Assembly (NCBI GenBank): GCA_934555825.1
Contig: CAKTFJ010000001.1
Coordinates: forward strand, 62,001 to 126,000
DNA: 64,000 bases
DNA from: an uncultured Hyphomicrobium sp.
Lineage (GTDB): Bacteria; Pseudomonadota; Alphaproteobacteria; Rhizobiales; Hyphomicrobiaceae
Direction of reading: 5' to 3'
The notes below the pieces were generated by a model. The model was not told where the DNA came from and did no database searches. It saw only the letters and a list, made by a program, of their open reading frames with translations. This document shows positions 35,957-61,669 of this stretch, piece by piece; within the stretch, counting starts at the first letter, position 1; each line of letters starts with the position of its first letter. Made by a program: the position numbers and the translations under genes.

Positions 35957-35997
35957 GGTCTCTCCCTCTCCGCCGCGACTGTCTCCTGCCGGTTCCG

Positions 35998-36756
35998 TCA
36001 GACGACGACGGTAGCCTTTTGGCCCATCGCCTGCTGGATCGCCCGCAGTGGCGCGGATGCGCGCCATACGTTCTCGATGCGGAACTGCTCGTGTCCGCCG
36101 CCGAAGATCGTGAGCTTGGCGTCGATGTCGCTGGTGCCGAGGCCGAGGAAGCCGAGGCCCAGGATTTTGTGGGCGATCAGGTCGTCGCTGTTGCGGGTGA
36201 GGCGAATGTGCATGACCGACCAGCTCTCGGGCGCGCGACCGAGAATGCTCGAAAAGCGTTGTACGCGCTCGACCTGCGTGCCGCGGAAGCGCCAGTAGGA
36301 AAGGCGGTCCACGATGAAGACGATCACGAACCAGACGGCGAATAGGACCGACGACACGAGCATGTAGAACGCGAGGTTCATGTGCACGAGGAGCGCGGGC
36401 GGTTCCGCCCAGAATTCCCGCGTGTCCATGACGAAGTAGGTGCCCGCCGCCGCAGCACCCATGAGCAGCAGCAGAAGCAGCGCGTTGACGCCGCGTGCGC
36501 GGACGGTGGTGGCGACGATCACGACGAGGAGGACAAGCGTGAAGGAGAGGCCGACCCACGCGCTGGGATGAATAAAGAGCGGCTTGACGCCCGCGCTGAA
36601 GTTGACCCGCTCGCCCTGGAAATAGGTGAAGGCCGCGCAGAAATATCCGTAAGCCCAGACAACCCACCAGTAGACGATTGGGGAGTGCGAATAGATGCGA
36701 ATTTCCGGGCTGCCCTGCGGTGCGGGCGCGGCGGATTGATCGGACGGTGTGACCAT
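35998..36756 (-). CDS. Conserved membrane protein with C-terminal soluble domain
   Basis: 252 residues with four membrane helices: about 27-47 (IVYWWVVWAYGYFCAAFTYF), 66-85, 88-108 and 124-150. After that comes a soluble part of about 100 residues (RGTQVERVQRFSSILGRAP, HIRLTRNSDDLIAHKILGLGFLGLGTSDIDAKLT) with a PH-like or beta-rich look. Start ATG 36756 has GGAAGG about 8 bases upstream. It is upstream of, and on the same strand as, the cyclase gene (41-base gap), so the two may be co-transcribed. I do not recognise the family. Confidence 0.75.
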   Translation of the reverse strand: MVTPSDQSAAPAPQGSPEIRIYSHSPIVYWWVVWAYGYFCAAFTYFQGERVNFSAGVKPLFIHPSAWVGLSFTLVLLVVIVATTVRARGVNALLLLLLMGAAAAGTYFVMDTREFWAEPPALLVHMNLAFYMLVSSVLFAVWFVIVFIVDRLSYWRFRGTQVERVQRFSSILGRAPESWSVMHIRLTRNSDDLIAHKILGLGFLGLGTSDIDAKLTIFGGGHEQFRIENVWRASAPLRAIQQAMGQKATVVV

Positions 36757-36856
36757 GCGGGCCTTCCCCCCTTATCCCTAGGGGTCGGACTGTCGCACCG
36801 GCGTGTGACAACTGTCAACGCGGGTGGGAGGATGGCACGGTTAACGGGCGCGCCCC

Positions 36857-39479: not shown

Positions 39480-42400
39480 ATGGCACTTCAGACGCGGCAC
39501 GCGGTTCTGTTTTTGTTTGTGGGAAGTTTGATGCTGTCAGCCAGTGCCACTGGCGTCCGCGCAAACGATCCGTGTGTGGCGAACGGCACGACGCTCATAT
39601 GCCAAGGCGACCAGGTGGACGGCGTCGTGGAGTCGAGCGGTGCCTACGACACCTTGCTGGTGAATTCTCTGACTGCCGGGATCGCGACCGTCGACATGAC
39701 GGGCATTTTCTTTTCCACGAATGGCCTGGCCATGACGCTGCGCAGCGCGACCGGACCATTCGGCATATCCACGACGGGTGATTTCGCGCCGGGTATCAAC
39801 GTTGTGTCCCAGGCATCGCTCATCAACGCTCAGCACACGTTTTCGTCTGCGGATATCCTGCTTTTCAGCGACGACACGATCGTGACGTCGGGTGAGGAGA
39901 GTTACGGTATCGCTTTGGATATGACGACGAGCGTGATCGAATCTCTTGCAACGGCCGATGTCTTCGCGACGGGGGGTAACGGCAACGCTACCGTCACCGG
40001 CACAATCACGACCCACGGCGTATATTCGCACGGTATTGACGCCTTCAACGCGGTATCCGCGGTGGCGACGGTTGCTGGGAGCCAAGCGACTGCGACAGGT
40101 GGCGACGTTACCGTTCAATCCACTCACGTGGAGACACATGGCGAGGATTCTGTCGGCGTGCTGCTTCGGCAGAACCTTTCCGCCAACGGGCATATGCTTT
40201 CGTCCGCAACGGGCGGACATATCGCGGTCAGCTCCGGTATCGTAACGACGCGAGGCGACTACGCCGCCGGTGTGGGCGCTCATTCTCTGCTGCTGATGCA
40301 GGGGCGCAATGCTTCTGGCACCGCTTCCGCCATCACGATCGAAAGCGATACGGTGCGGACATTCGGTGTTTCTTCAACTGGCATAAACGCGTCAGTTATG
40401 GCGATTGCGGAAACCGAAGACGCCGCAACCATTCTTGGGCGCGAAATCTCCGTCACCAATTTGGGGCTCATTGAAACGCACGGCGAGTTGTCCGACGGGA
40501 TCGCGCTCGGTCAGCAGTTCCGGGCTTTGAGCGATAACGCAACCGCGTATGCAAGATCAGGCAGCGTCGAAATCGACAACGAAGGCCTGGTCGATGTTCG
40601 CGGTCTTGGCGCTGCGGGAATTGTCGTCGGTCAAGAGGTCGTGGCTGTCGCGCGCGACGCGTCCTCATCGGCGATTGCAATCGCTGCAGACACCGTAGTG
40701 AACAGCAAAGACGTGCGTGTGGCCGACGGGTTTGCAGGCATAGCCGTTTTTAACACGGCCGTTGCGGATGCTGCCGGTGAAGGGCAAGCATACGGCTCGA
40801 ACACTACGATCAACGCGCACGACATTCGTGTGACAGGCGATGGGAACTTAATGCCGCTGGTCGTTGGCATCATGGTTGTCAACGGTGCAGAGAACCGAGG
40901 TGCTTCTGGCTTGGCGCGAGCCGGCGATGTTTTCGTAAAAACGACCGGTACGATCTCGGTCGAGGGCGGTGACCCGACCGGTCTTGCGTCCATCGGTATT
41001 ATGGCAGGAAGCGGCGCCGACGGTGCAGGCGCAGAGCACGGCGACGTCTCCATTCATGTCGCCTCGGGATCGGTTTCGGCGCAAGTTGCAGTCGCTTTCA
41101 TGTCTGAAGGCGATAATGGGCTTGCGAACTTCGGCACTGTTGCGGGGCAACTTGCCGTTGTGGGCGGAGACGGACACGAGACGATCGAGAACTGGGGAAC
41201 GATTGCCGGAAGCATCGATCTGGGCAACGGCGACAACGCATTCAACAACTATGCCCCTGGCGTGTTCGTCTCGCGCGATTTCGTAAATCTCGGCTTGGGC
41301 ACACTGACGAACGCAGGCCTGCTGACGCCAGGCGGTGCGGGAGCTTTGCAGGTTACGGCATTCGGCGGCAATCTCGTGCAGACGGAAAGCGGGCGCTTCG
41401 CGGTCGACCTGGATTACGCGACGCGCGATTCGGACCGCCTTGAAATCGACGGCACTGCCTCGCTGGCCGGAACGGTGGTCGGGCGAGCACTCGCGACTGG
41501 TGCCGCCGGTTTGGAGCAACGGTTTCACATTTTGAATGCGACCGGCGGCGTGACCGACGATGGGCTGACCGCGCAAGATACCGCGGCCGTCGATTACAGC
41601 GTGTACTTCGATCCGAACGGAGAAGATGTCCATCTGGGCGCCGTGATCGATTTCTCGGGGCGAGGCGGCCTCAATCCCAATCAGGCCCGTATCGGGCGGG
41701 CGATGAACACGATCCAAGCGAACGGGGCGCCTGCGTGGATGGCGTCCGGTCTGGTGGGCTTGATGAACGTGCCGACAACCGCGGATCTCGGGCGCGCGTA
41801 CGATCAGCTTTCTCCGGTGTCATTCGGGCAGCAGCAGGCCGAGGGGCAGGGCGCCTCGGCGGACTTTGCGAATACGCTTATGAGCTGCCGAGAGGCGGGC
41901 GGGCCGAACGCGGCGATCCGCGAGGGCGAGTGTCTTTGGGCACGCGCGCGTGCGACCGATATCGATGTTGACGGCTCGGCGACGAACGTCGGCTCGAACA
42001 GTCGGGTGGGGTCGTTCGCGGCCGGTCTTCAGGTCGCGATGGCGGCCGATTGGCGGATCGGTGTCGCGTTGGGCTACGATCTCATCTCGCGTTCGACGCA
42101 GAGCGGTGCATCGACGGACGGGGAACGCACCAACATCGGCGCGGTCGTGAAATACAACCCTGGGCCGTTTCTTTTCGCGGCGGGTGGTGCCGCCGGCTGG
42201 GGATCATTCGAGACGGATCGCCGGATGGCGTTCGGGGGCTTTGCCGCGACCGCCACATCGAAGAGCGACACGGATTATGTGAGCGGCTGGCTCCATGCTG
42301 CGTATCTCGCTGATCAGGGACGCTGGTATCTGAAGCCGCTCGTCGAAGCGCGCGTCACCGAACTCGACTTTTCCGGTGCGCGGGAAACGGGTGGCGGCGG

Positions 42401-42752
42401 GTTTGGGCTCGTGATTGCGGGCTCCCGCGATACGATGCTCAGCGTTTCTCCCGCGATTGAGGTGGGAACCGAGTTTCGCTTCGACGCGCTCGCCGTGTGG
42501 CGGCCCTTCGTGCGTGCGGGCGTGACGTGGCAAGACGAAGACAGTTTCGTCACTCACGCGGCCTTTGCGGCTGCCCCCGGCGCTCCGGGCTTCCAGATCG
42601 TGACCGACGTTGACGACGTCCTATTCGATATTAGTGCGGGTGTCGACGTCATCGGAGTGGACGGCGCGGTGCTTCGCGCGCAGTACGACGGGCGCTTCGG
42701 CAGCACGTTGAGCCAGAACAGTGTCAGCCTGAAAGGCAGCGTGCCGTTCTAG
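39480..42752 (+). CDS. Autotransporter (type Va) with beta-helix passenger
   Basis: 1090 residues. Signal peptide at the start (MALQTRHAVLFLFVGSLMLSASATG). The passenger (about 30-800) has repeated units of roughly 55-70 residues with a recurring (I/V)xTxGxxSxGI core: THGVYSHGI, THGEDSVGV, TRGDYAAGV, TFGVSSTGI, THGELSDGI, VRGLGAAGI. This is a parallel beta-helix adhesin-like passenger, linked to an autotransporter beta-barrel (about 820-1090), with VGSFAAGLQVAMAADWRIGVALGYD and ending in LKGSVPF, whose terminal Phe fits BamA recognition. No protease or lipase motif is seen. Two cysteines near the N-terminus of the mature chain (DPCVANGTTLICQ) could be disulfide linked. Probably a surface adhesin or biofilm factor. 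Confidence 0.92.
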   Translation: MALQTRHAVLFLFVGSLMLSASATGVRANDPCVANGTTLICQGDQVDGVVESSGAYDTLLVNSLTAGIATVDMTGIFFSTNGLAMTLRSATGPFGISTTGDFAPGINVVSQASLINAQHTFSSADILLFSDDTIVTSGEESYGIALDMTTSVIESLATADVFATGGNGNATVTGTITTHGVYSHGIDAFNAVSAVATVAGSQATATGGDVTVQSTHVETHGEDSVGVLLRQNLSANGHMLSSATGGHIAVSSGIVTTRGDYAAGVGAHSLLLMQGRNASGTASAITIESDTVRTFGVSSTGINASVMAIAETEDAATILGREISVTNLGLIETHGELSDGIALGQQFRALSDNATAYARSGSVEIDNEGLVDVRGLGAAGIVVGQEVVAVARDASSSAIAIAADTVVNSKDVRVADGFAGIAVFNTAVADAAGEGQAYGSNTTINAHDIRVTGDGNLMPLVVGIMVVNGAENRGASGLARAGDVFVKTTGTISVEGGDPTGLASIGIMAGSGADGAGAEHGDVSIHVASGSVSAQVAVAFMSEGDNGLANFGTVAGQLAVVGGDGHETIENWGTIAGSIDLGNGDNAFNNYAPGVFVSRDFVNLGLGTLTNAGLLTPGGAGALQVTAFGGNLVQTESGRFAVDLDYATRDSDRLEIDGTASLAGTVVGRALATGAAGLEQRFHILNATGGVTDDGLTAQDTAAVDYSVYFDPNGEDVHLGAVIDFSGRGGLNPNQARIGRAMNTIQANGAPAWMASGLVGLMNVPTTADLGRAYDQLSPVSFGQQQAEGQGASADFANTLMSCREAGGPNAAIREGECLWARARATDIDVDGSATNVGSNSRVGSFAAGLQVAMAADWRIGVALGYDLISRSTQSGASTDGERTNIGAVVKYNPGPFLFAAGGAAGWGSFETDRRMAFGGFAATATSKSDTDYVSGWLHAAYLADQGRWYLKPLVEARVTELDFSGARETGGGGFGLVIAGSRDTMLSVSPAIEVGTEFRFDALAVWRPFVRAGVTWQDEDSFVTHAAFAAAPGAPGFQIVTDVDDVLFDISAGVDVIGVDGAVLRAQYDGRFGSTLSQNSVSLKGSVPF

Positions 42753-51271: not shown

Positions 51272-51346
51272 GGTCCCTTCGTCTATCGGTTAGGACGTCA
51301 GATTTTCAATCTGAAAAGACGGGTTCGACTCCCGTAGGGACCGCCA
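51272..51346 (+). tRNA. tRNA-Glu (anticodon TTC)
   Basis: 75 nt. Acceptor GGTCCCT/AGGGACC, D arm with TATCGGTTAGGA, anticodon loop centred on TTC in CAGATTTTCAATCTG, and T arm GGGTTCGACTCCC. CCA is encoded at the 3' end. It stands alone after recJ. Confidence 0.97.
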
Positions 51347-51579
51347 TTTGTTTGGCGGACAAAACATCATCTAAAATCAGTGCATTAGGCGTGAGCAGGG
51401 CGCGCGTGCTTGCCGACTGCCGGTTGGTGTCGGTCCATCTGCCTTCCGCTCGACACACGCCAGCTTTCGAATTTTCTCAGACAGCGTGTGCAGCGTTGTC
51501 GAAAGAGCGACGGCTCGGATGATCGAGCGGAGGTGCCAGTAATTTCATTTATGGGCTTTCTGTTCGCTCGTCCTGGGTC

Positions 51580-52854
51580 CTACTTTCGCACGTGAAGCTC
51601 GGACAGCGGAACGCGGCCATTCAGGATGAAGGCAATCGACTCGAGGATGGTGGCATTCGTGTTCAAGTCGATATTGGTCGGCGGTTTTCCGGTTTTTTCG
51701 AAGACGCCCGGGTGGAAACCGAAATCCTTGGCGCGTGCGTCCTTCCTCACGAGCTTCCACAATTTTTCCGAATAGTCGGACGGGCGCGTCGCGAACCAGA
51801 GGAACGCAGCCTTCGTGTTGATCACGCGGTTATCGGGGGCAAACGACGGCGTGTTCCACCGCTTATCGGTCTGGTACGAGTAAACCGTCCACGCGGCTTC
51901 CCCTTTGCGCGTGAGGTCCAGTCCCTGGTAGGTGAACCACGGCTCACGATCTATCGGGGTTTCGGAAACGCTTGTGAGCTTGCCAGTGGCTTTGTGGCGT
52001 TCTTTCTGACGCTTTTCGAGAACGTCCGCGATGACGGTCGCGTAGGGGCTTGGACCGACCTCGACGATTTCGATCAGGCTTGGTTCTGTTGCGATGGGAC
52101 CGATCGAGCTCAACTCTTTGAGGAACGCCTTGCGTGTGGCCTCATTTTTGTCAGGTGCGGCGCCCGTATAGGCGGCGGCGTGCTCGATCGACCAGAAATC
52201 GTAGCCGCGCGAGACGTAGTAACGATAGATGTTCGATCGTGCCGGGTAGAATTTTCCACCCTTGAGATCGTTCATCACACCATCGATGACAGTTTTGTCG
52301 AGAGTCCAGCCCTTGAACAGAGAGGCTGCATCGAAGCGCTTGTTCGTGGCATCGTCGAGAATGCGGAGCGCGATAAAAAGGCGTCCAGTGTCTGTCGTAT
52401 CGTAACCATCCTCGACGGATTTGGCGGTGGCGATGTCACTGCGGAAATTTGGAACCTTGAGGCCCTTGCGGGTGTACGTGGCGCGCTTGATGAAGTCGAG
52501 GATGCCTGAGATCCGCTTTTCGAATGTCGCGTCGTCGATCAGCTCGATGGAGCGGGCCGATAGCGTCGCGAGGATCGTGGAGCCGACATCCCACATGGTG
52601 ACGATGTCGTAGGAGCCGAACCCGCCCTCGCCGTCCGGCCAGATGTTGGGCGCGGAGAGGCCCGTCTGGCCGTTGCCTTTGCGCTCGAAGAACTTCCAAG
52701 CCTGAGCCGCGTCTTCCCGCAAGTCTGCAGCGATCTGTGGCGTGAGCTTCGCTCCACCATCCCCATCGCGTGGCTTCGCTTGAAGCATCATCGGGGATGC
52801 CAAAGCGCACAGTGTAAAAAACGCCCCCGCGATACCGAGTGAAAGTGCTTTCAC
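51580..52854 (-). CDS. Exported DUF3131 family protein
   Basis: About 424 residues from a GTG at 52854 (AGGAG eight bases upstream), giving a signal peptide VKALSLGIAGAFFTLCALASPMML. The mature part is mostly alpha-helical. DUF3131 landmarks: AQAWKFFERKGNGQTGLSAPNIW, GEGGFGSYDIVTMWDVGSTILATLSAR, NFRSDIATAKSVEDGYDTTDTGRLFIALRIL, YRYYVSRGYDFWSIEHAAAY and INTKAAFLWFATRP. Glycosidase-like alpha/alpha-barrel folds are suspected for this family, which is often near polysaccharide genes. It is divergent from the GH18-NodB-GT2 gene with a 724-base leader region between, and likely belongs to the same exopolysaccharide system. Confidence 0.88.
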   Translation of the reverse strand: MKALSLGIAGAFFTLCALASPMMLQAKPRDGDGGAKLTPQIAADLREDAAQAWKFFERKGNGQTGLSAPNIWPDGEGGFGSYDIVTMWDVGSTILATLSARSIELIDDATFEKRISGILDFIKRATYTRKGLKVPNFRSDIATAKSVEDGYDTTDTGRLFIALRILDDATNKRFDAASLFKGWTLDKTVIDGVMNDLKGGKFYPARSNIYRYYVSRGYDFWSIEHAAAYTGAAPDKNEATRKAFLKELSSIGPIATEPSLIEIVEVGPSPYATVIADVLEKRQKERHKATGKLTSVSETPIDREPWFTYQGLDLTRKGEAAWTVYSYQTDKRWNTPSFAPDNRVINTKAAFLWFATRPSDYSEKLWKLVRKDARAKDFGFHPGVFEKTGKPPTNIDLNTNATILESIAFILNGRVPLSELHVRK

Positions 52855-53368
52855 CGCCGTTCGCTCCTGACAAAATAAATCAGAAAAATTGGCGCGCAAT
52901 TTTCTCTTTTTATACGTATTTATAAACGCCCTCTTCGAAAGGTGTGAAAAGGGTTAACTTCCGCCCCAAAAAATCTCGCGCGGCTATCTATGGCGATAAT
53001 TGCGGAGATGGCAGTTGGGATGCGGGACGTGAGTTTTAGATTGAAGCTTCGGCGCTTTCCGGTGGGCTCGCCGTCATGTTGGCTATCCTGTGTCTGGCGG
53101 CTGGAAGCGCGGCACTCAGAACGCTTGGATCGGTTGATGCCGCCGGATGGCCGCCGGCTCGTTTGGTGACGTTTCTCCGGCCTATCTTTATGGCTACGCG
53201 TCGGCTGCCGTCACGGTGTGCCTTTTGAAAGAGGGGACGGCGTAGGGGGCTCGAGCGCACGCTTGGGGATGGGCGAGCTGCAAATTCCTTCCTTTCGGAA
53301 ATCTCCAAGGGGTTTTTTGGGCGTCTGACCGCGACGCCAATGCGCATGGCCGCCAGCCCCTTTTCGAT

Positions 53369-53567
53369 CAGGTTTTGAGTTTATGCGGCAACGGAATTTC
53401 CGACAGCGGAAACCTGCTTTCGACCTCGACCCTTGAAGTCGAGGCGCTGCCCCATTGCGGGGCGGTCATTAACGTTTTGTAGATGAGTCGCTTGCGGGCA
53501 GCTTCATTCCTCTATTTCTTATTTAACATCTTTTAACCATCGGAAGTTTTGCGTCTTCCGTTTTTTT
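53369..53567 (+). promoter_or_regulatory. Structured 5' leader of the exopolysaccharide synthase gene
   Basis: Within 200 bases upstream of the GTG start are four strong hairpins: an outer stem CAGGTTT/AAACCTG (53369-53375 / 53410-53416) enclosing TTTCCG-ACAG-CGGAAA (53397-53412); CCTCGAC/GTCGAGG (53424-53444); GCCCC/GGGGC (53449-53463); and an intrinsic terminator CGGAAG/CTTCCG plus T7 (53541-53567). The last ends 11 bases before the start codon. The arrangement looks like an aptamer plus terminator platform, or an sRNA. It matches no riboswitch class that I recognise. Confidence 0.5.
53541..53567 (+). terminator. Intrinsic terminator immediately before the exopolysaccharide synthase gene
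   Basis: CGGAAG TTTTGCGT CTTCCG (53541-53560) followed by seven Ts (53561-53567). It points in the direction of the downstream gene and precedes its GTG by 11 bases, so it would stop transcripts before the coding region unless antitermination occurs. The stem is short, but the T-run is good. Confidence 0.6.
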
Positions 53568-53578
53568 GAGTCATTTGC

Positions 53579-56500
53579 GTGGCCGAGCGCCGTCACACGC
53601 CTGTGTTCTACGACCGCAATGGGCGTAGGGGGTACGTTGTGACATTCGCAGCTCTCCTGGCCGCGGTCGTCACGGTCTCCGTTCTGCTTTGTCTCGCCAT
53701 CAGCCTTGCCACACCGGCTGTGCTGCCGAAGCTCACGATGGCTATCGGGCGGACGTTGAGCCACAGTCTGCCGTCGCTGTCGTTTACGAGCGTGTCGCCC
53801 GCGCTCGATCTCGAACATTTGCGGAGTTCCGATGCGGATGGGCGGCAGGTTCCGCGCCTCGCGTTCTACAATAGCTGGAACGAGAACGGATTTTTCTCGC
53901 TCAGGGCGAATTCAAACTTGCTCGACGTCCTCCTTCCCGAGTGGCTGCACACCAGCGGTGCGGAGGGTGCGATCTCACGCGACGATTCCCGTAAGGAGTC
54001 GGAAACGCGTCTGTGGATTCAAAAGAATGCGCGCCATCTGGCGATCATGCCCGTGATCAACAACTACGATCCAGTGGCAGGAGAGTGGGACGGCGGTGCG
54101 ATAGACGCGATGCTGGCGAGCGATAGTGCGCGTCAGGCGCTTACGAAGAATATTGCGGACTATCTCAAGGAAAAGCGCGACCAAGGCATCGTCGTCGATT
54201 TCAAAAAATTGAGCGATTGGAGCATCCCGCTCTTCATCGACTTTCTTGCTGAGCTCAAGGCGGCGCTTCATTTGGAGGGGCGCAAAGTGCTCGTCGCCGC
54301 GCCTTCTTATGAAAAGCGGTGGAATTTGTGGAAGCTTTCGAGCGCGGCCGATCAAGTCATTATTCTTGCCTATGACCAGCACTGGGAGGGTGGAAGTTCG
54401 GGACCGCTCAGCGCGCAGGGTTGGTTCGAAGATCAGCTCGACAGGGCCTTTGCGACCAATTCCGGAAACAAGTTCGTTGTCGGGATCGGCTCATATGCCG
54501 TCGATTGGGACAATGAAGGATCTGCCCGGCGCGTCTCCGTTCCAGAGGCGTGGGATGTTCTGGAAGAATCCAAGTCGGTGCTGCATTTCGAGGGGCAGAG
54601 CCTCAATCCGACGTTCGGCTACAAGTCCGGGAGCGAGGAGCGGCAGGTCTGGTTCCTCGATGGCGTCACAGGCTACAATCAGGTGGCAGCGGCTCTGGCG
54701 ATGAAGCCAGGCGGTCTCGCGCTTTGGCGTCTCGGCACGGAAGACCCCACCATCTGGTCCAGTTTCGCGCGTGGGAAGATTGCCGAGGAACGTGTCCTCG
54801 AAGATCTCAAGTCATTGCAGCCGAGCGGCGCAATTCTGCACAAGGGTGAGGGCGAGGTTCTCTCCGTCTCCGATCGGCATTCCGCCGGACAAAGGACGAT
54901 CGATTTTCAGAAGGAGTTCAACCTCATTGTCTCGCAGACAGTGACGGAGCTGCCGAAGTCTCTCAGCCTGCACCGTTGGGGCCGCAATTCCGGAAAGCTT
55001 CTTGCACTCACTTTTGACGACGGGCCCGCAAGGCCTTTTACGCCGCGCATTCTCGATATTCTCAAAGAAAAGGATGTGAAGGCGACGTTCTTCGTCGTCG
55101 GTGCCAATGCGGCGCTTGAGCCGAGTTTGTTAAAGCGGATCTACGCCGAAGGCCACGACATCGGCAATCATACGTTTACCCATCCCAACCTGAGCTCGGT
55201 CGGCCCCACGCTTCTCGATCTCGAGCTCAACGCAACGCAACGTATTCTGGAAGCCAAGATCGGCGTTGGAACGCGACTGTTCCGGCCTCCATTCAACAAG
55301 GATTCCGAGCCGGAGGGGCGAAACGAGGCGCGAACGCTGATCAACTCTGCAGCGCTTGGCTACATCACGATCGGATTGAAGATCGATCCGCTCGATTGGG
55401 CGAGGCCAGGCGTTGAAGAAATTATCGAGCGTACGGTGTCCTATGCCGAGGCGCGCCGCGGTAACGTCATCCTCTTGCACGACGGCGGTGGCGACAGGAC
55501 GCAAACCGTCGATGCGTTGCCACAGATCATCGACCGGCTTCATGCGCGTGGTTTCCGCTTCGTAACGGTGCATGAGCTTCTTGGCCTCAAGCGCGAGGAG
55601 GTGATGCCGCCGATCCATACATCGACGACGTATGCGGTGTCGCTGAACAACGCGGGCTTCACCATTCTAAGCACCAGCACGAATGCCGTCGGCGTTCTGT
55701 TTTTTGTGTCCATTCTTCTGGGTATCGGGCGCCTTCTCCTGGTGAGTGCCGGAGCAATCGTCCAGCAACGCCGCGTGCGCTCGCGCGAGGCGCTGACGTG
55801 GGCGCCGCGGTCGCTGGCGGTGATCGTGCCTGCGTACAACGAAGAGAAGTGCATCGTCGATTCCGTACATGCGCTTCTTGCCATGGATGGTTTTGCGCCG
55901 GATATCATCGTCGTTGACGACGGCTCGACGGACGCCACATACGACGTGGCACGGGCGGCGTTCATCGACGAACCTCGCGTCAAGGTCGTCACCAAGGAGA
56001 ACGGCGGAAAAGCCTCGGCGCTCAATCACGGTCTGCAACTGACGGACGCGGAGATCATCGTCGCTATCGACGCCGATACACGGCTGGATCGCGACGCCAT
56101 CACGTGGCTGGTGCGCCACTTCGGAGATCCGAAGGTTGGCGCGGTCGCAGGTTGTGTCGAGGTGGCCAATCAGGCGCGTCTCATTACCCGCTTCCAAGCG
56201 CTCGAGTATGTCATCAGCCAGAACCTCGATCGGCGGGCGTTCGAGATGGTCAACGGCATTATCGTCGTGCCGGGGGCGATCGGGGCCTGGCGCCGCCAAG
56301 CGGTGCTCGATGTCGGTGCGTACGACGACGACACGCTAGCGGAAGACGCCGACCTCACGCTCAAGCTCGAACGGGCAGGATGGCGCATTCTCACCGAGCC
56401 GAAGGCGTTCGCTCGGACGGAAGCGCCTCAGACCACCCGGCTTTTTCTGCGGCAGCGGTTTCGCTGGATGTTCGGGATGCTACAGGTTGCGTGGAAGCAT

Positions 56501-56941
56501 CTCGAGGTCGTTCGCCAGCGCGGTGCGGGCGGCGTCAAATACCTGACTTTGCCAAATATTGTTTTTTTCCAATTCTTTTTTGCGCTCGTCGCTCCAGTGG
56601 TGGATGTTTTGCTCGTTGCGAGCCTTTTTCTCGACGTCATGCACTATTTGCAGTTCGAGGCCTCTGGGCTTTCGCCCCGTACCAAGTCCTTGGCGTTTTA
56701 TTGGGCAATTTGGCAGTTGCTCGAATTCAGCGTGGCTGTGCTGGCATTTTGGCTGGACGGGCGACGTATCTCTTGGAGCTTGTTACCTCTCTTGATTTTG
56801 CAGCGTTTCTGTTATCGGCAACTTATTTATTACGTGGCGATCAAAAGTTTCGCTGCTGCGATTAGGGGATCTCTTATCGGGTGGGACAAGCTGCCCCGAC
56901 AAGGTCTCGGGATTCTGCCAAATAAATCTGGAGATACCTAG
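53579..56941 (+). CDS. Fused degenerate GH18 - NodB polysaccharide deacetylase - GT2 synthase
   Basis: 1120 residues. TM1 about 19-44. A GH18-like domain (about 90-400) follows, where the usual catalytic DxxDxDxE reads QGIVVDFKK, with the catalytic Glu replaced by Lys, so hydrolysis is doubtful. A NodB deacetylase (about 470-650) is intact: LALTFDDGPARP, HDIGNHTFTHPNLS, RLFRPPFNKD and ILLHDGGG. After a membrane helix (about 700-725), the GT2 domain starts VIVPAYNEE, IIVVDDGSTDATYD, VAIDADTRLD, EDADLTLKLERAGW and LRQRFRWMFG (Q-x-x-RW), the signature of processive synthases (PgaC/NodC/chitin synthase), and the C-terminus has several membrane helices. It would polymerise and partly deacetylate an N-acetylglucosamine-type chain. 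GTG start at 53579. Confidence 0.9.
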   Translation: MAERRHTPVFYDRNGRRGYVVTFAALLAAVVTVSVLLCLAISLATPAVLPKLTMAIGRTLSHSLPSLSFTSVSPALDLEHLRSSDADGRQVPRLAFYNSWNENGFFSLRANSNLLDVLLPEWLHTSGAEGAISRDDSRKESETRLWIQKNARHLAIMPVINNYDPVAGEWDGGAIDAMLASDSARQALTKNIADYLKEKRDQGIVVDFKKLSDWSIPLFIDFLAELKAALHLEGRKVLVAAPSYEKRWNLWKLSSAADQVIILAYDQHWEGGSSGPLSAQGWFEDQLDRAFATNSGNKFVVGIGSYAVDWDNEGSARRVSVPEAWDVLEESKSVLHFEGQSLNPTFGYKSGSEERQVWFLDGVTGYNQVAAALAMKPGGLALWRLGTEDPTIWSSFARGKIAEERVLEDLKSLQPSGAILHKGEGEVLSVSDRHSAGQRTIDFQKEFNLIVSQTVTELPKSLSLHRWGRNSGKLLALTFDDGPARPFTPRILDILKEKDVKATFFVVGANAALEPSLLKRIYAEGHDIGNHTFTHPNLSSVGPTLLDLELNATQRILEAKIGVGTRLFRPPFNKDSEPEGRNEARTLINSAALGYITIGLKIDPLDWARPGVEEIIERTVSYAEARRGNVILLHDGGGDRTQTVDALPQIIDRLHARGFRFVTVHELLGLKREEVMPPIHTSTTYAVSLNNAGFTILSTSTNAVGVLFFVSILLGIGRLLLVSAGAIVQQRRVRSREALTWAPRSLAVIVPAYNEEKCIVDSVHALLAMDGFAPDIIVVDDGSTDATYDVARAAFIDEPRVKVVTKENGGKASALNHGLQLTDAEIIVAIDADTRLDRDAITWLVRHFGDPKVGAVAGCVEVANQARLITRFQALEYVISQNLDRRAFEMVNGIIVVPGAIGAWRRQAVLDVGAYDDDTLAEDADLTLKLERAGWRILTEPKAFARTEAPQTTRLFLRQRFRWMFGMLQVAWKHLEVVRQRGAGGVKYLTLPNIVFFQFFFALVAPVVDVLLVASLFLDVMHYLQFEASGLSPRTKSLAFYWAIWQLLEFSVAVLAFWLDGRRISWSLLPLLILQRFCYRQLIYYVAIKSFAAAIRGSLIGWDKLPRQGLGILPNKSGDT

Positions 56942-56983
56942 GATTGTTGCAGGTGCGCCACTTTCGTCGGCGCCGATTCATGA

Positions 56984-56995
56984 TACCTAGGGGTA
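56984..56995 (+). promoter_or_regulatory. Shared upstream motif TACCTAGGGGTA (copy 1)
   Basis: TACCTAGGGGTA lies about 70 bases upstream of the BcsS gene start. The same 12-mer, in the same orientation relative to its gene, is 50 bases upstream of the GH5 gene. It has TACC/GGTA mirrored arms and resembles the heptamer type (TACCCCT) of NarL/LuxR-like response regulators. A partial copy, TACCTAGG, overlaps the stop of the synthase gene (56937-56944). Confidence 0.45.
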
Positions 56996-57064
56996 TTGCC
57001 GTAGTATGCCTTTCTTTGTTTTGCGTTGGCAGAGCCTAGAAATCCGACGCAAAGGATAAGGCCC

Positions 57065-57844
57065 ATGGCCATGAAGTCACCGCGCCCATTCTGGTCGACG
57101 TGTGTGGCGCTCAGCATCTCGACTTTCACGACGGTTTCAGCGTACGCGCAATTCCTCGATACGCCGCCCTCTCCAGGGGCAACGTCGACGGTCGTATTCT
57201 CGGGGATTGATTTTTCCAAAGATTCCTATGCGGGCTGGACGGGCGTGATCGTTTCGCTCGAACGGGATCTCGGAAAAAGCGGGTTCATGTTTCGCGCGGT
57301 CGGTGTCCATGCGGGATATGAATACGATACGACATTCGGTAATACGCCCGTCGTTATCGATGGCGATGCGTGGATCGGAGATGCGATGATCGGCTATCAA
57401 GCCGTTCTTCCCGCTTTTCGCGCTGCCGCGTATATCGGCATCGAATATCAGGATCACGACCTGACGCCCGACGATCCCAGCAATGTCGTCAATGGCGATG
57501 AGGCCGGGTTCAAAGTGGTTGGTGAACTCGAGTCGCCGTGGTCGTCGCCGTTCTATTTCGGAGCCATCGGTGCCTACTCGACAGCCTTCGACGCGTACTG
57601 GACACGCGGCCGCCTCGGCCTCAGGCACGAGGGTCTTCTGTTCGGCGTGGAAGGCGGGGCGAGTGGTAACGACGGCTACGACAATCAACGGCTCGGCGGG
57701 TTCTTCGAGTTCCCGGTGCCGATGGGGCCACTTACGGGCTATGTTTCGCTCAACGGCGGCTACCAGTTCGCGGATGAGGGTGAAGCCGGTCTCGGCGGTG
57801 GTCGCGGCGCCTACGGTGGTGTGGGCTACAGCTTCTCATTCTAA
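57065..57844 (+). CDS. bcsS: BcsS-family outer-membrane beta-barrel protein (cellulose biosynthesis BcsS)
   Basis: 259 residues. Signal peptide to about residue 30 (STCVALSISTFTTVSAYAQ). The mature part alternates hydrophobic/hydrophilic strands: STVVFSGIDFSKDSYAGWTGVIVSLERDLG, FMFRAVGVHAGYEYD, GDAWIGDAMIGYQAVLPAFRAAAYIGIEYQDHDL, GRLGLRHEGLLFGVEGGASGN and GYVSLNGGYQFADEG, ending in YGGVGYSFSF (terminal Phe). That is the BcsS barrel described for cellulose export in alphaproteobacteria. No bcsA is present in the window, so it probably serves the amino-sugar polymer made upstream. ATG at 57065 has AAAGGA eight bases before. Confidence 0.85.
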   Translation: MAMKSPRPFWSTCVALSISTFTTVSAYAQFLDTPPSPGATSTVVFSGIDFSKDSYAGWTGVIVSLERDLGKSGFMFRAVGVHAGYEYDTTFGNTPVVIDGDAWIGDAMIGYQAVLPAFRAAAYIGIEYQDHDLTPDDPSNVVNGDEAGFKVVGELESPWSSPFYFGAIGAYSTAFDAYWTRGRLGLRHEGLLFGVEGGASGNDGYDNQRLGGFFEFPVPMGPLTGYVSLNGGYQFADEGEAGLGGGRGAYGGVGYSFSF

Positions 57845-57981
57845 GACGCCAACGGGGGCGTGGAGTTGGGTCGGGGCCTCGGCCCGTGGGCCGATCTATT
57901 TGCGCGAACCGTGTATGTGTGGGTCAGGCTCGCCGTTTTTGGCTGGCCGTGATCTCAGCCAGTCCGAATTAGAGATTGCAG

Positions 57982-58004
57982 CCGCGGTGTGAAGAGCACC
58001 GCGG
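57982..58004. terminator. Bidirectional terminator between bcsS and the chitosanase gene
   Basis: CCGCGGTG-TGAAGAG-CACCGCGG is a perfect 8-bp GC stem (57982-58004). It separates two convergent genes and has CCTCTTTGATT on the plus side and GCAATCTC on the minus side. No long U-run, but position and stem suit a shared terminator. Confidence 0.6.
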
Positions 58005-58030
58005 CGCCTCTTTGATTGCTTCTGGGCGGA

Positions 58031-58909
58031 TCAGGACACCTCGGCGTTGAAGTGCGCGCTCGTCACGAGCACCGGTGGTTCTAGGCCCGGATTGTGCGCG
58101 AGAAGATCTGATAGGACATCGACGCGCCCCACGGACTGACGCCACACATCGGCGGTCTCGCGATTGGCGGGCTCTGCGAGCACATGCCGGCGCATCTTCA
58201 GAAATGCATGCAGAAATTCGACTTCGCGGCCTTCTTTCGGTGAGCCGACAGCTTTCTGTGCTCTCTCCGATATGGCGCCGAAAGAATCGGGATCCTCGCC
58301 GCCGCCGTGTTGGAGGATCGTATCGTAGAATATGAGCCGCCCGACGGGGAGGGTGACACCAAGTGTGTCGGCTGCTTCCATCGCGGGGTTGAAGTACAAG
58401 CGATCGGCGACCTCGTCACATGCCTGCTGAAGAAATGGTCCGCGGGCAAGTTCGCGGCCCCAGGCTTTCGCGAAGCCTGTCAATTTTGCCGAGTCTGTTC
58501 CGGAGGCTTTCGGCGGGAGTTGTGCGAGAAATGGTGTCAGGCTGTTGACTGCAGCGAGTTCCGTATAGCGTTCGATGATCCAGCCGGCTTCGAGCTCGTT
58601 CGTTACAAATCCATATTGTGTGATTGTGTAGCCGCGGCCGTCTCCGAGGTCCTCGATGTAGCCGAAGTCGGGCCGCGGTGCGCCGACCTCAAAAATGTTC
58701 GAGATCGATTTGATCCTTTGGACCATGGCCCTGTCGATGTTCGGCTGGGGGCCGGTGCGTTCGGAGTGCGGCGCCATCTCTGCCACTCGCCCGATGTTTC
58801 GATGCGCAATATGCGTGGCGCCAACTGCGAGGGACAAGACAATTACGTGGCGACGATTAATGCGCACGCCGCTCTGCGTGCTCGCTTGCGTTGAGGCTTC
58901 GGCCGTCAT
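58031..58909 (-). CDS. GH46-like chitosanase
   Basis: 292 residues. A hydrophobic N-terminal stretch with INRRHVIVLSLAVG is a Tat-like or uncleaved signal. The domain begins about 56 (RAMVQRIKSISNIFEVG) and carries the GH46 signature DFGYIEDLGDGRGYTITQYGF, where the Glu (residue 86) is the general acid. In the reference Streptomyces enzyme the second catalytic residue (Asp40) aligns with Glu107 here (FVTNELEAGWI), a conservative change. Later segments: GRLIFYDTILQHGGGEDPDSFG and VGRVDVLSDLLAHNPG. It hydrolyses glucosamine-rich (chitosan) chains, and fits beside the deacetylase-synthase as a trimming or release enzyme. ATG at 58909. Confidence 0.82.
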   Translation of the reverse strand: MTAEASTQASTQSGVRINRRHVIVLSLAVGATHIAHRNIGRVAEMAPHSERTGPQPNIDRAMVQRIKSISNIFEVGAPRPDFGYIEDLGDGRGYTITQYGFVTNELEAGWIIERYTELAAVNSLTPFLAQLPPKASGTDSAKLTGFAKAWGRELARGPFLQQACDEVADRLYFNPAMEAADTLGVTLPVGRLIFYDTILQHGGGEDPDSFGAISERAQKAVGSPKEGREVEFLHAFLKMRRHVLAEPANRETADVWRQSVGRVDVLSDLLAHNPGLEPPVLVTSAHFNAEVS

Positions 58910-59340
58910 CCCCGCTCCGATCCGGTCCCCGCTGCGCGTATGCGCCGACCGAGTAGACCTGGCCGGACGCGTGGGATACGCACACTGGGTTGCGAAGTCG
59001 GGTAACCTCGATGCTGCTGTCGCTCGAGTTCGTGCGGTGTGGAATGAATATCGCGACCGCTCGTCGACAATGCTCAGCTATTTTGGGAAGCCAAGTTGCC
59101 GGACGGTCTGGTCCACAGCTATCGGGGAATTCGTGGGAGTGGCCGCGAGAGGCGTGTCCGGAGCGTCACAGGCGTGCCGGTGCGGCCCGCGCTGGGTTGG
59201 GGCGAGTTGGCACTTGCGCCCGCTGCGCGCAGCGATGCGGGAGGTTGTCGAGCATCTTTCGGCCCGAGGGGATCGGATCGGCAACGCCAGGTGTTCGTTG
59301 ACGCCGATGCTTCACTTCGGACTGAGGGGAACCGAAGCGA
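58910..59340. other. Intergenic region between the chitosanase and GH5 genes
   Basis: 431 bases with no convincing gene; plus-strand readings here are shadows. The right end contains one arm of the hairpin repeat described at 59315-59409. The region includes the chitosanase promoter (minus strand), which I could not define. Confidence 0.4.
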
Positions 59341-59409
59341 TCATGGCCTCTTTAGTAAGACCGATGGATCCCGCTTGGGACTGATAGGGTCCGAAGCGAT
59401 CATGGTCTT
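59315..59409. repeat. Imperfect direct repeat with hairpin core at the 3' end of the GH5 gene
   Basis: Two copies about 59 bases apart (59315-59349 and 59374-59409) share CTT-GGACTGA-GGG--CCGAAGCGATCATGG-CT. The identical core is CCGAAGCGATCATGG. Copy 1 has CTTCGG...CCGAAG arms that fold on each other; copy 2 has lost one base of symmetry (CTTGGG). The GH5 stop codon TGA (59343-59341) lies inside copy 1, so the last 20 codons of GH5 are encoded by this duplication. Confidence 0.6.
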
Positions 59410-61131
59410 GTGCGGAGGCTTGAGGGCGTCCTCGAGCGCATGGACTAATTTCGGGTTGGGTCTGATCGGCGGGTGCGCGAACTCGAACTCGCCCGAGTTG
59501 CGGACGAACACGCCCATCGTATCGCCATGGTATTCCCAGTACGCGTACGCGACGGTGTGTTTCTCGAGAAGCTCCAGGATATCCCTCAGCCAAGCTGCGC
59601 CGCCGCGCTTGCCTTTAAAGGCAGTTCCGATGAGGCCGAATTCCATCACCGACATGGGCACATTGTGCTTTGCGCCGAATTCGAGCGACTCCTGCATCTT
59701 GTGTTCGAGAAGCCGTTTTGTGCGGCCGATGAATGCCCCCCGGCTGCTCCCGGCGGGGTTTTTGTAGAAGTCGATTTCAAGATAGACCCCGCCGCGCTCG
59801 CTTCCGCCGGACGGGCGTATGTCTTGCCCCCTCAATCGGCCGACGATCCGATAACTGTGGCCGGGAACAATGGCGAAGAAGTTGTCGTCGCTGCTCCAGC
59901 CGGAGATCCGGTTGCGCTCCAAGCCTGAGATCACGAGGCTGTAATCGTCGTTGAAGCCTATATCCCATGAGATGCGGAATTTGCTGGTGTCGCTGTTCTG
60001 CTGGCCCCAGGGATACCAGTGAAGAACGCGCTCCTCGTCTAGCGGGTCACGGGCCACCTCTCCGATCAGATTGCCGGCTCGATCGTATTCGAGCACCTTC
60101 ACGTCGTCGACGTGGACAGTTCCGTGGACGGGCCCGCGTGCGACCACCATGGGTAGTCCGGCGACTGCGGCTTTGTCGGTCACGGTGACGCGCCCACTAT
60201 CGTAGAGCTGCCAATCGCTATCGCCATCAACGACCGAAGGCGTCGATATGCGCGCATTGGGAATGAGAATCTGGCCACCTGTTGGGAGTAGGACTTTCGG
60301 ATCGGGGTATCGCCCGCCGTCGTCGGTCGGTCGTTCAAGCCACTTTGCGGACTGGTGCGTGTATCGAATGGGTTCGTAGAAATGAAAATCGTAGAGGGCA
60401 TTGTTGTCGTCGACGAGAAAATGTCGCTCGAGACCTTGAGTGCCGTACTGGCCCTCCGTCCCGTATAGGGCGCCTACGATGATGACGTGGTTTTTGTTGA
60501 CCTCTCGGATGGCGCTCACGAGCTTTCGGGCAAGGTCGCGCCACTGTTGCCCTGTTTCGTCCAGCGTCACGGGTTCGTTGAGGATGTCGAGGGCGGCGAT
60601 GTTTTCCCGATCGCGATACCTTGCGGCGATGTCCTTCCACATCTCGATATTTTTTTGCTGGATCTTTGGATCGCGCCATATGTCGAAATTGACGCGCTTC
60701 GTCGGGTCGAGCCAAAAACTTCCGATTGGCGTGTGAAGGTCGAGGATGAGGTTTATTCCGTGATCGTTCGACATTTGGACGTTGCGGTCGAGCCACCGGA
60801 AAAACGTATTGCGATCCCGGTCGTACCAATCGCCGTTGAACGCGAATCTAACGGCATTGAAGCCAAGTTCACGTACGCGACCGAAATCTGCGGCGAAATG
60901 ATGGGGCGACTCGAGGAGCTCAGCCGGGGACAGGTCCATAAAATAAAAATTCGAGAAATTGACGGCCCGCAGCATCAAGCGCCTTCCGTTGCGCACCAGA
61001 TGCCGCCCTTCGACTTTGATAAAGCTCGTCTTTTGGTCGGGCGGCGGCTCGGCGTGCGCTTCGGTAGGGGCGGTGGCGGCCGTGAACAAAATGGCCAAGG
61101 CAGCAGGTAGAAGAACAGGACGCCTATTCAA
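59341..61131 (-). CDS. GH5-family glycoside hydrolase with an inserted domain
   Basis: 596 residues from a TTG start at 61131 with GGAGG just upstream. Signal MNRRPVLLPAALAILFTAATAPTEAHA. The GH5 barrel shows the acid residue in ALDILNEPVTL (Glu186) and the nucleophile in SVMEFGLIGT (Glu497). The 310-residue gap is far larger than the usual 100-150 between these sites; residues about 290-460 form an insertion with beta-sandwich character (WQLYDSGRVTVTDKA, FRISWDIGFNDDYSLVISGL, SYRIVGRLRGQDIRP), probably a carbohydrate-binding module. The C-terminal tail (KTMIASDPISPK) is encoded by the hairpin repeat. Substrate is likely a beta-1,4 glycan and might be the exopolysaccharide itself. Confidence 0.85.
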   Translation of the reverse strand: MNRRPVLLPAALAILFTAATAPTEAHAEPPPDQKTSFIKVEGRHLVRNGRRLMLRAVNFSNFYFMDLSPAELLESPHHFAADFGRVRELGFNAVRFAFNGDWYDRDRNTFFRWLDRNVQMSNDHGINLILDLHTPIGSFWLDPTKRVNFDIWRDPKIQQKNIEMWKDIAARYRDRENIAALDILNEPVTLDETGQQWRDLARKLVSAIREVNKNHVIIVGALYGTEGQYGTQGLERHFLVDDNNALYDFHFYEPIRYTHQSAKWLERPTDDGGRYPDPKVLLPTGGQILIPNARISTPSVVDGDSDWQLYDSGRVTVTDKAAVAGLPMVVARGPVHGTVHVDDVKVLEYDRAGNLIGEVARDPLDEERVLHWYPWGQQNSDTSKFRISWDIGFNDDYSLVISGLERNRISGWSSDDNFFAIVPGHSYRIVGRLRGQDIRPSGGSERGGVYLEIDFYKNPAGSSRGAFIGRTKRLLEHKMQESLEFGAKHNVPMSVMEFGLIGTAFKGKRGGAAWLRDILELLEKHTVAYAYWEYHGDTMGVFVRNSGEFEFAHPPIRPNPKLVHALEDALKPPHKTMIASDPISPKRDPSVLLKRP

Positions 61132-61180
61132 GACACTCCTCCCGACGCTTCAAAGTGCGTTCAGGTACGATCTCCGCTTT

Positions 61181-61192
61181 TACCCCTAGGTA
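61181..61192 (-). promoter_or_regulatory. Shared upstream motif TACCTAGGGGTA (copy 2)
   Basis: On the minus strand this reads TACCTAGGGGTA, the same 12-mer as at 56984-56995. It lies about 50 bases upstream of the GH5 start codon. Close by is a direct repeat ACTACC...ACTACC (61190-61210). Confidence 0.45.
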
Positions 61193-61669
61193 GTTCCCGG
61201 TAGTATTCTTTGTTTTTAAGATGTTGCGGACCGTGTTTTATTATTTACTTTAATATTTGAGGTTTTTCCAGTTTTTGCTCCGCTCAATTTTTTGGGCAAA
61301 TGAAAAGCGCGGGTTGGATCGGGTTTGAAGCACTGCATGACAGCGCACAGAGCGCGTCGTGAAGTCCCAGTGCGCAGGTGTGGGATGCGATCGCCCCGCT
61401 GCTTTCGAGCATGCTGTGCATGAGGCCGAATAGCCTCGCACATCTGGCCACTGCAGGTGGCTGGCCCTCCCGAACGATTTCGTATGACGTCGGTCAAGTG
61501 ACCTTGCTGAGGCGTGTGTAACCTGAGGTCGTTGATCGCCGATCTGTCGGCGCGTGCTTTCAGGAGGGATAGGCCGTTGCCGCACTGACAGCGTACGGCT
61601 TATGCGCGATTTCGAAGGCTTGCCGGATTGTGACCAAACCGCAACACGATCTCCCGCTTTGCCAGGTGG
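61193..61669. other. AT-rich non-coding region upstream of GH5
   Basis: About 477 bases without a gene. Positions 61205-61290 are unusually AT-rich for this genome (GTTTTATTATTTACTTTAATATTTGAGG), followed by ordinary GC. A minus-strand reading (61216-61497) has no protein character. The AT-rich tract may be a target for a MucR or H-NS-like silencer, or just a promoter. Confidence 0.4.

Follow-up and report, generated by a model that had tools for sequence, protein, structure and literature searches.

In Escherichia coli, the PgaABCD system polymerizes and deacetylates its product with separate proteins, among them PgaD and a deacetylase that also carries a glycoside hydrolase, and its outer-membrane porin is PgaA (by annotation). 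In Streptomyces, according to the available passages of a 2018 report, MatB joins an intracellular GT2 (glycosyltransferase family 2) domain to an extracellular CE4 (carbohydrate esterase family 4) domain via a transmembrane helix and makes poly-N-acetylglucosamine (PNAG) (PMC5972031). The available part of a 2020 report likewise describes Gram-negative fusions of a glycosyltransferase to a PgaB/IcaB-like deacetylase, found without pgaA or pgaD and with an unknown export route (PMC7112194). In the current study, we analyzed a 64,000-nucleotide stretch of DNA (the window) from an uncultured Hyphomicrobium sp. (contig CAKTFJ010000001.1, positions 62,001 to 126,000), in which a GH18-NodB-GT2 fusion lies between genes for a DUF3131 protein and a BcsS-family barrel. 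We hold with moderate confidence that these three genes form a synthase-dependent amino-sugar exopolysaccharide module, inserted behind a tRNA-Glu gene and beside a resident chitosanase gene, in which the DUF3131 protein acts in place of the GH18 domain.

Families were assigned by a Pfam profile search of the window's open reading frames (ORFs), in which seven domain matches exceeded curated cut-offs. The fusion (1,120 residues; positions 53579 to 56941, plus strand) matched Glyco_hydro_18 (41.6 bits), Polysacc_deac_1 (112.8 bits), and Glyco_tranf_2_3 (121.5 bits). Transmembrane-like segments occupy residues 17 to 56, 694 to 730, and 989 to 1025 and beyond; the GH18 (ca. 93 to 395) and NodB (ca. 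470 to 670) domains sit between the first two, and the GT2 domain (ca. 740 to 970) follows the second. With GT2 and CE4 domains in one chain and a transmembrane-like segment between them, the fusion has a layout like that reported for MatB. MatB, however, belongs to a Gram-positive envelope and is described in the passages available with two functional domains only, with no GH18, and without any named DUF3131 or BcsS partner. Like the Gram-negative fusions, the window protein joins a glycosyltransferase to a deacetylase and has no PgaA pore, although the passages seen of that report name no DUF3131, BcsS, GH46, or lost GH18 residue (PMC7112194). Compared with PgaABCD, polymerization and deacetylation here fall to one chain, accompanied by a BcsS barrel and a separate DUF3131 protein; neither a PgaA-type porin nor PgaD appeared among the Pfam and NCBIfam matches seen for the five locus proteins, and the PgaB hydrolase domain is absent from the nine Pfam families matched at the locus. 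The open-licence PMC literature, as far as it could be seen in passages, yielded no paper tying DUF3131, BcsS, or GH46 to a fused glycosyltransferase-deacetylase.

The fusion is not in itself a novelty. A search at E <= 1e-80 gave 6,530 relatives, of which the top 120 were examined, the 80 fusion loci kept come from hosts that include Sphingomonas, Bacillus, Acidobacteria, and cyanobacteria, and both MatB and the fusions with PgaB-like deacetylases are already in print. The initial annotation was correct in placing synthesis and deacetylation in a single ORF, but this arrangement is not peculiar to the locus. What is new is that the catalytic glutamate of the GH18 domain has been replaced by lysine and that this loss is mostly paired with a neighboring DUF3131 gene. 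In alignment with four solved GH18-family chains (5jh8, 4q6t, 4s3k, and 3cz8, among them YaaH and YdhD), the window fusion has Lys209 where these have the catalytic Glu of the D-x-E motif that marks an active GH18; the GH18-like domain of the initial annotation is real, but its catalytic acid is gone. Over 224 fusion rows, which include duplicates of the same locus, position 209 is E in 144, K in 68, Q in 5, S in 2, G and P in 1 each, and a gap in 3, while the NodB and GT2 motif residues examined are preserved in 218 to 224. The window's NodB domain has all the motif residues checked (D480, D481, H531, H535, R569, D603, and H634), so the deacetylase is, as originally proposed, intact; these include the Asp, His, His, Arg, Asp, and His motif residues of active CE4/NodB deacetylases. 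The GT2 motifs of the window fusion are intact as well. A further active-site loss at residue 267 was considered and rejected, since both Glu and Gln occur there among Glu209 types.

Other genes of the locus travel with the fusion. Of 103 genomes in the family to which Hyphomicrobium sp. CS1BSMeth3 (G001) belongs, 15 have the fusion at E <= 1e-200, and all eight genomes with a full-length DUF3131 protein, as well as all seven with GH46, are among these carriers. The chance of such overlap is 2.7e-8 for DUF3131 and 3.2e-7 for GH46, on the assumption of independent genomes, which they are not. Two further, weak DUF3131 matches in this sample fell within open frames of more than 2,200 residues. 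Nine of the 15 carriers have BcsS next to the fusion. In an order sample of 297 genomes, the fusion was present in nine, GH46 in one (a carrier already in the family sample), and full-length DUF3131 in four, three of which have it in longer open frames and lack the fusion (G206, G260, and G324); in a class sample of 220 genomes, the fusion was present in five and full-length DUF3131 in four, with both in two (G001 and G540). The association expected from the initial annotation was thus seen for DUF3131, GH46, and, by adjacency, BcsS, and its proposal of an amino-sugar polymer locus holds for the core (DUF3131, fusion, and BcsS).

Linkage to DUF3131 and loss of Glu209 were compared across 107 loci, obtained from 112 fusion ORFs of at least 2,700 nucleotides after merging 5 that were identical over the last 400 residues; shorter pieces (e.g., L098 and L076) were not counted. 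Glu209 occurs in none of the 13 DUF3131-linked loci (2 of which, L092 and L174, were assigned by hand) and in 90 of the 94 unlinked ones, where the absence of DUF3131 was judged from the surrounding stretch (in several cases less than 2.5 kb per side) and, for loci with G handles, from whole-genome searches. Among 126 genomes from the order to which G540 belongs (taken to be Rhodobacterales), seven have the fusion; DUF3131 adjoins it in all seven, with K, Q, N, R, S, R, and T at residue 209. G540 was known beforehand, and the other six constitute a new test of the rule. Overall, including the window, Glu209 has been lost in 20 of 20 DUF3131-linked loci. In a tree built from NodB and GT2 columns only (91 rows including the window, with 17 rows more than 86% identical omitted and without the six newest loci of G540's order), DUF3131 linkage has two origins and Glu209 loss has three.

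The third loss is a single clade of four loci without DUF3131 (Methylobacterium segetis L012, Methyloligella L058, G020, and G402). A Wza-like Poly_export gene adjoins the fusion in all four (L012:8114-10563, L182:4801-7495, L181:6595-7983, and L058:13140-14795), and L012 and G402 have a separate GH18 gene with an intact DGxDxDxE motif. Among the 101 loci surveyed to 6 kb (6 of the 107 were lost to a motif filter, and 26 of the 101 have a flank below 2.5 kb, where an absent neighbor means little), Poly_export of this kind was confined to these four and stand-alone GH18 to L012 and G402. In Methyloligella GL2 (L058:5821-9089), glmS-like and glmM-like genes, of the kind that supply hexosamine, are found upstream, with one gene between them and the fusion.

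We infer from these patterns that DUF3131 replaced GH18 as the chain-processing enzyme. A broader and more tentative idea, to which we give appreciably less than even credence, is a hydrolase hand-over in which the function of a dead built-in GH18 passes to an adjoining separate glycosidase gene: DUF3131 in two lineages and, for some members of the third, a stand-alone GH18 that is intact. DUF3131 would then be a family of envelope enzymes that process amino-sugar polymers, possibly transglycosylating or cyclizing them as its nearest fold relative does. Such an idea gives DUF3131 a testable activity. It may also amount to a natural experiment on what exopolysaccharide synthases gain from a glycosidase, in that most of the losses seen have another candidate hydrolase adjoining the synthase.

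Several observations weigh against a replacement of GH18 by DUF3131 within a dedicated module. The ratio of GH18 to GT2 identity (from pairs with GT2 identity of 0.55 to 0.85) is 0.81 in the Lys clade versus 0.65 in Glu-type pairs, so that GH18 is no decaying relic there; in the Rhodobacterales-like clade and the third loss clade, where the ratio is 0.54 and 0.55, GH18 is drifting. Two members of the third clade, L058 and G020, lost Glu209 with no replacement hydrolase found nearby. Since linkage arose only twice, an independent-pair sign test of linkage against Glu209 loss has two pairs and cannot reach 0.05. G540's order contains 10 more genomes with full-length DUF3131, in at least two copies, and no fusion, and DUF3131 therefore serves elsewhere too. 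BcsS, for its part, is present in 94 of the 103 family genomes, mostly without the fusion, which weakens its tie to the polymer, and 12-stranded barrels have narrow pores. Finally, known enzymes of the fold predicted for DUF3131 act on beta-1,2-glucan and not on amino sugars.

That fold is an (alpha/alpha)6-barrel of the SGL clan (GH144, GH162, and kin) or GH189 type, these being the nearest folds among the matches listed by the structure aligner. The window's DUF3131 protein (positions 51580 to 52899, minus strand; PF11329, 231 bits) has a signal-like N terminus by eye and belongs to the module core; its start is probably the GTG at 52854, 15 codons downstream of the ORF start, because P0121, the closest relative at 98% identity, has 424 residues. 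The SGL signature Glu-Phe-Tyr corresponds to E239, F286, and Y367 in XcSGL, in the available part of a paper on the clan, where the word "DUF" was not found (PMC12102758). Compared by spacing alone, DUF3131 residues E272 and F322 and a conserved column at 400 (where the window protein itself has Phe) are 50 and 128 residues apart, versus 47 and 128 in XcSGL. DUF3131 resembles the SGL-type enzymes in predicted fold and differs from them in being secreted as a protein of its own, next to an amino-sugar-type synthase. No function for the family was found in the open-licence PMC passages that mention it.

This likeness raises the question of whether the product might instead be something other than an amino-sugar homopolymer, with beta-1,2-linked or mixed glucose residues. 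Besides the activities of its fold kin, DUF3131 also occurs beside cellulose-synthase-like GT2 genes; in Klebsiella, it lies next to cellulose synthase and OpgC, according to the passages seen (PMC12974863). We nonetheless regard a glucose-containing product as unlikely. The module's GT2 domain shares its chain with a deacetylase and lies at a distance from OpgH and BcsA in the tree, and D63, D167, and D411 are kept in at least 53 of 54 relatives of the window's DUF3131 protein and in 5 distant deacetylase-linked ones, but not in the set of 4 linked to cellulose synthase. Other contexts of the family include a longer open frame in G260, in which DUF3131 is joined to a deacetylase-like domain, and a Mesorhizobium plasmid on which such a DUF3131-deacetylase-like protein overlaps a separate GT2 gene. 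In L166 and L167 (Pseudooceanicola and Paracoccus plasmids), two DUF3131 genes, a GT2 gene (annotated in L166 as cellulose synthase), and an acyltransferase gene form a run, and these DUF3131 proteins lack D167 and D411. The first ca. 90 DUF3131 positions weakly match open frames of about 2,800 to 2,970 residues, which probably encode cyclic beta-glucan synthases.

In a GT2 tree of 41 rows, the 29 fusion GT2 domains grouped with PgaC and IcaA and not with NodC, BcsA, or OpgH; this tree has long branches (OpgH, 10; Mesorhizobium GT2, 4.6), resolves the junction of the fusions with PNAG synthases weakly, and does not include hyaluronan synthase. The best match among the listed GT2 families was TIGR03937 (PgaC_IcaA; 181.2 bits, under the equivalog cut-off of 422.3). 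QRxRW is the motif of processive GT2 enzymes, and all 224 fusion rows have its Q, R, R, and W. This invariance, the distance from NodC, and the outer-membrane barrel or Wza-like export gene that adjoins the fusion in some clades make it very doubtful that the fusion modifies peptidoglycan or produces an oligosaccharide, short or lipid-linked, in place of exporting a polymer, even though it scores highly with CE4 profiles of deacetylases that act on peptidoglycan and chitooligosaccharides.

The site of the module is best seen by comparison with another genome of the family, taken to be H. nitrativorans NL23 (G066). The region from 46.0 to 51.35 kb of the window (homoserine dehydrogenase, glpX, recJ, and tRNA-Glu), GH46, and a TonB receptor gene follow the same order in G066 at 85 to 90% DNA identity, the G066 site reading recJ, tRNA-Glu, GH46, and TonB receptor without the core or GH5. 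Synteny stops at 51353, and the module starts just 3′ of tRNA-Glu (ttc; 51272 to 51346, plus strand). Where the window has the 6.6-kb module stretch (51354 to 57960), G066 has 510 bp; positions 57961 to 59229, containing GH46, are 85% identical to the G066 site, and the 2.2-kb GH5 stretch (59230 to 61473) is missing. G066 carries its own DUF3131-fusion-BcsS set at 0.95 Mb, 65 to 68% identical to the window's in DNA pieces. We infer an insertion in the window rather than a loss in G066 from this low identity of the two modules and from low GC content (0.577 to 0.598 in the five locus genes, versus 0.652 in glpX, 0.674 in recJ, and 0.618 in the TonB receptor gene), a reading not polarized by an outgroup. 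No direct repeats of 10 bases were found between the ends of the module or of the GH5 stretch, and no integrase is among the five locus genes.

These comparisons bear on the initial annotation, which had spoken of six proteins and had taken the polymer to be made and trimmed by one locus. The families are as it described, but five genes are present, and a single undivided five-gene locus was rejected in view of the G066 site. As that site has GH46 without the core or GH5, and as GH46 is 89% identical between the window and G066 versus 58 to 59% for the fusions (P0017), the core, chitosanase, and GH5 have separate histories, and GH46 is a resident gene of the chromosomal site, outside the inserted module. 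The GH5 hydrolase (59341 to 61131, minus strand; Cellulase/GH5, 88.9 bits; signal-like N terminus by eye) is rejected as a module member and probably does not belong there: it is missing at the G066 site, and searches with the window GH5 as query, which would miss distant GH5 proteins, turned up no relative in the 6-kb surroundings of 101 fusion loci or in the other fusion-locus sets scanned. That all five genes constitute one co-selected make-and-trim unit is thus highly improbable, despite their adjacency in the window and the contacts of GH46 with DUF3131 and fusion genes in other genomes.

The GH46 chitosanase (58031 to 58909, minus strand; 144.6 bits against a cut-off of 27; twin-arginine-like N terminus by eye) adjoins fusions of a distant, Glu209-type lineage in four other family genomes (L019, L094, L095, and L096) and DUF3131 in G084, and in G102 (L098, contig C59) a second, interrupted fusion copy is next to it. 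Given these neighbors, a functional tie between the polymer and an enzyme that cleaves glucosamine chains may still exist. Glu74 and Asp90 of the window's GH46 align with chitosanase 7c6c and are present in eight of eight proteins compared; we take them to be the catalytic pair in view of the Glu-to-Ala variant chain 7c6d.

The polymer may be "chitosan-like" (beta-1,4-linked) or PNAG-like (beta-1,6-linked). The chief competing explanation, a substantial though minority possibility, is that the fusion makes partly deacetylated beta-1,6-linked N-acetylglucosamine (GlcNAc) in the fashion of MatB or PgaC and that the adjoining chitosanase is a coincidence of the insertion site. The proximity of the fusion GT2 to PgaC and IcaA and the presence of GH46 at the site without the module favor this, as does MatB itself, a GT2-CE4 protein reported as a PNAG maker whose CE4 domain also resembles chitin deacetylases, in the passages available (PMC5972031). 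Set against it are the confinement of GH46 to fusion carriers in the family (7 of 7), its adjacency to the distant fusion lineage as well, and a NodB domain that scores with PdaB, NodB, and PgdA-type deacetylase profiles at a locus whose nine matched Pfam families do not include the PgaB hydrolase domain.

The BcsS-family protein (57026 to 57844, plus strand, with ATG 57065 as its likely start) matches CBP_BcsS (PF17036) at 174.7 bits, over the cut-off, as expected of BcsS from cellulose systems; here, however, no cellulose synthase is among the genes at 51.5 to 61.1 kb, and its partner is the fusion. Its model (pLDDT [predicted local distance difference test], 85) has 12 strands, and the nearest barrels among the matches listed are those of autotransporters and of two oligosaccharide porins, KdgM and NanC; the protein may have a role in export. 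BcsS and the Wza-like Poly_export are candidate outer-membrane partners for amino-sugar synthases that lack PgaA.

For the proposed module, the following sequence of events can be envisaged. Judging by its motifs and its place beside PgaC and IcaA, the cytoplasmic GT2 domain would polymerize UDP-GlcNAc and thread the chain through the fusion's own membrane helices, and the intact periplasmic NodB domain would deacetylate the polymer as it emerges. GH18, having lost its catalytic acid, would at most hold the chain, and the periplasmic DUF3131 barrel would cut or transglycosylate it instead. BcsS would help the product over the outer membrane, and the resident GH46 may trim a glucosamine-rich product. 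The N termini, by eye, of four of the five locus proteins are signal-like or twin-arginine-like.

A few neighboring genes deserve mention. On a Deinococcus plasmid (L157:2694-7861), a diguanylate cyclase gene comes after the fusion, a hint of cyclic di-GMP control; in Sphingobium (L170:5758-12459), the genes that come after it are VirJ-like and lysyl-phosphatidylglycerol-synthase-like. Elsewhere in the window, genes for a CHASE2-adenylate cyclase and an autotransporter are found at 33755 to 36811 and 39480 to 42752.

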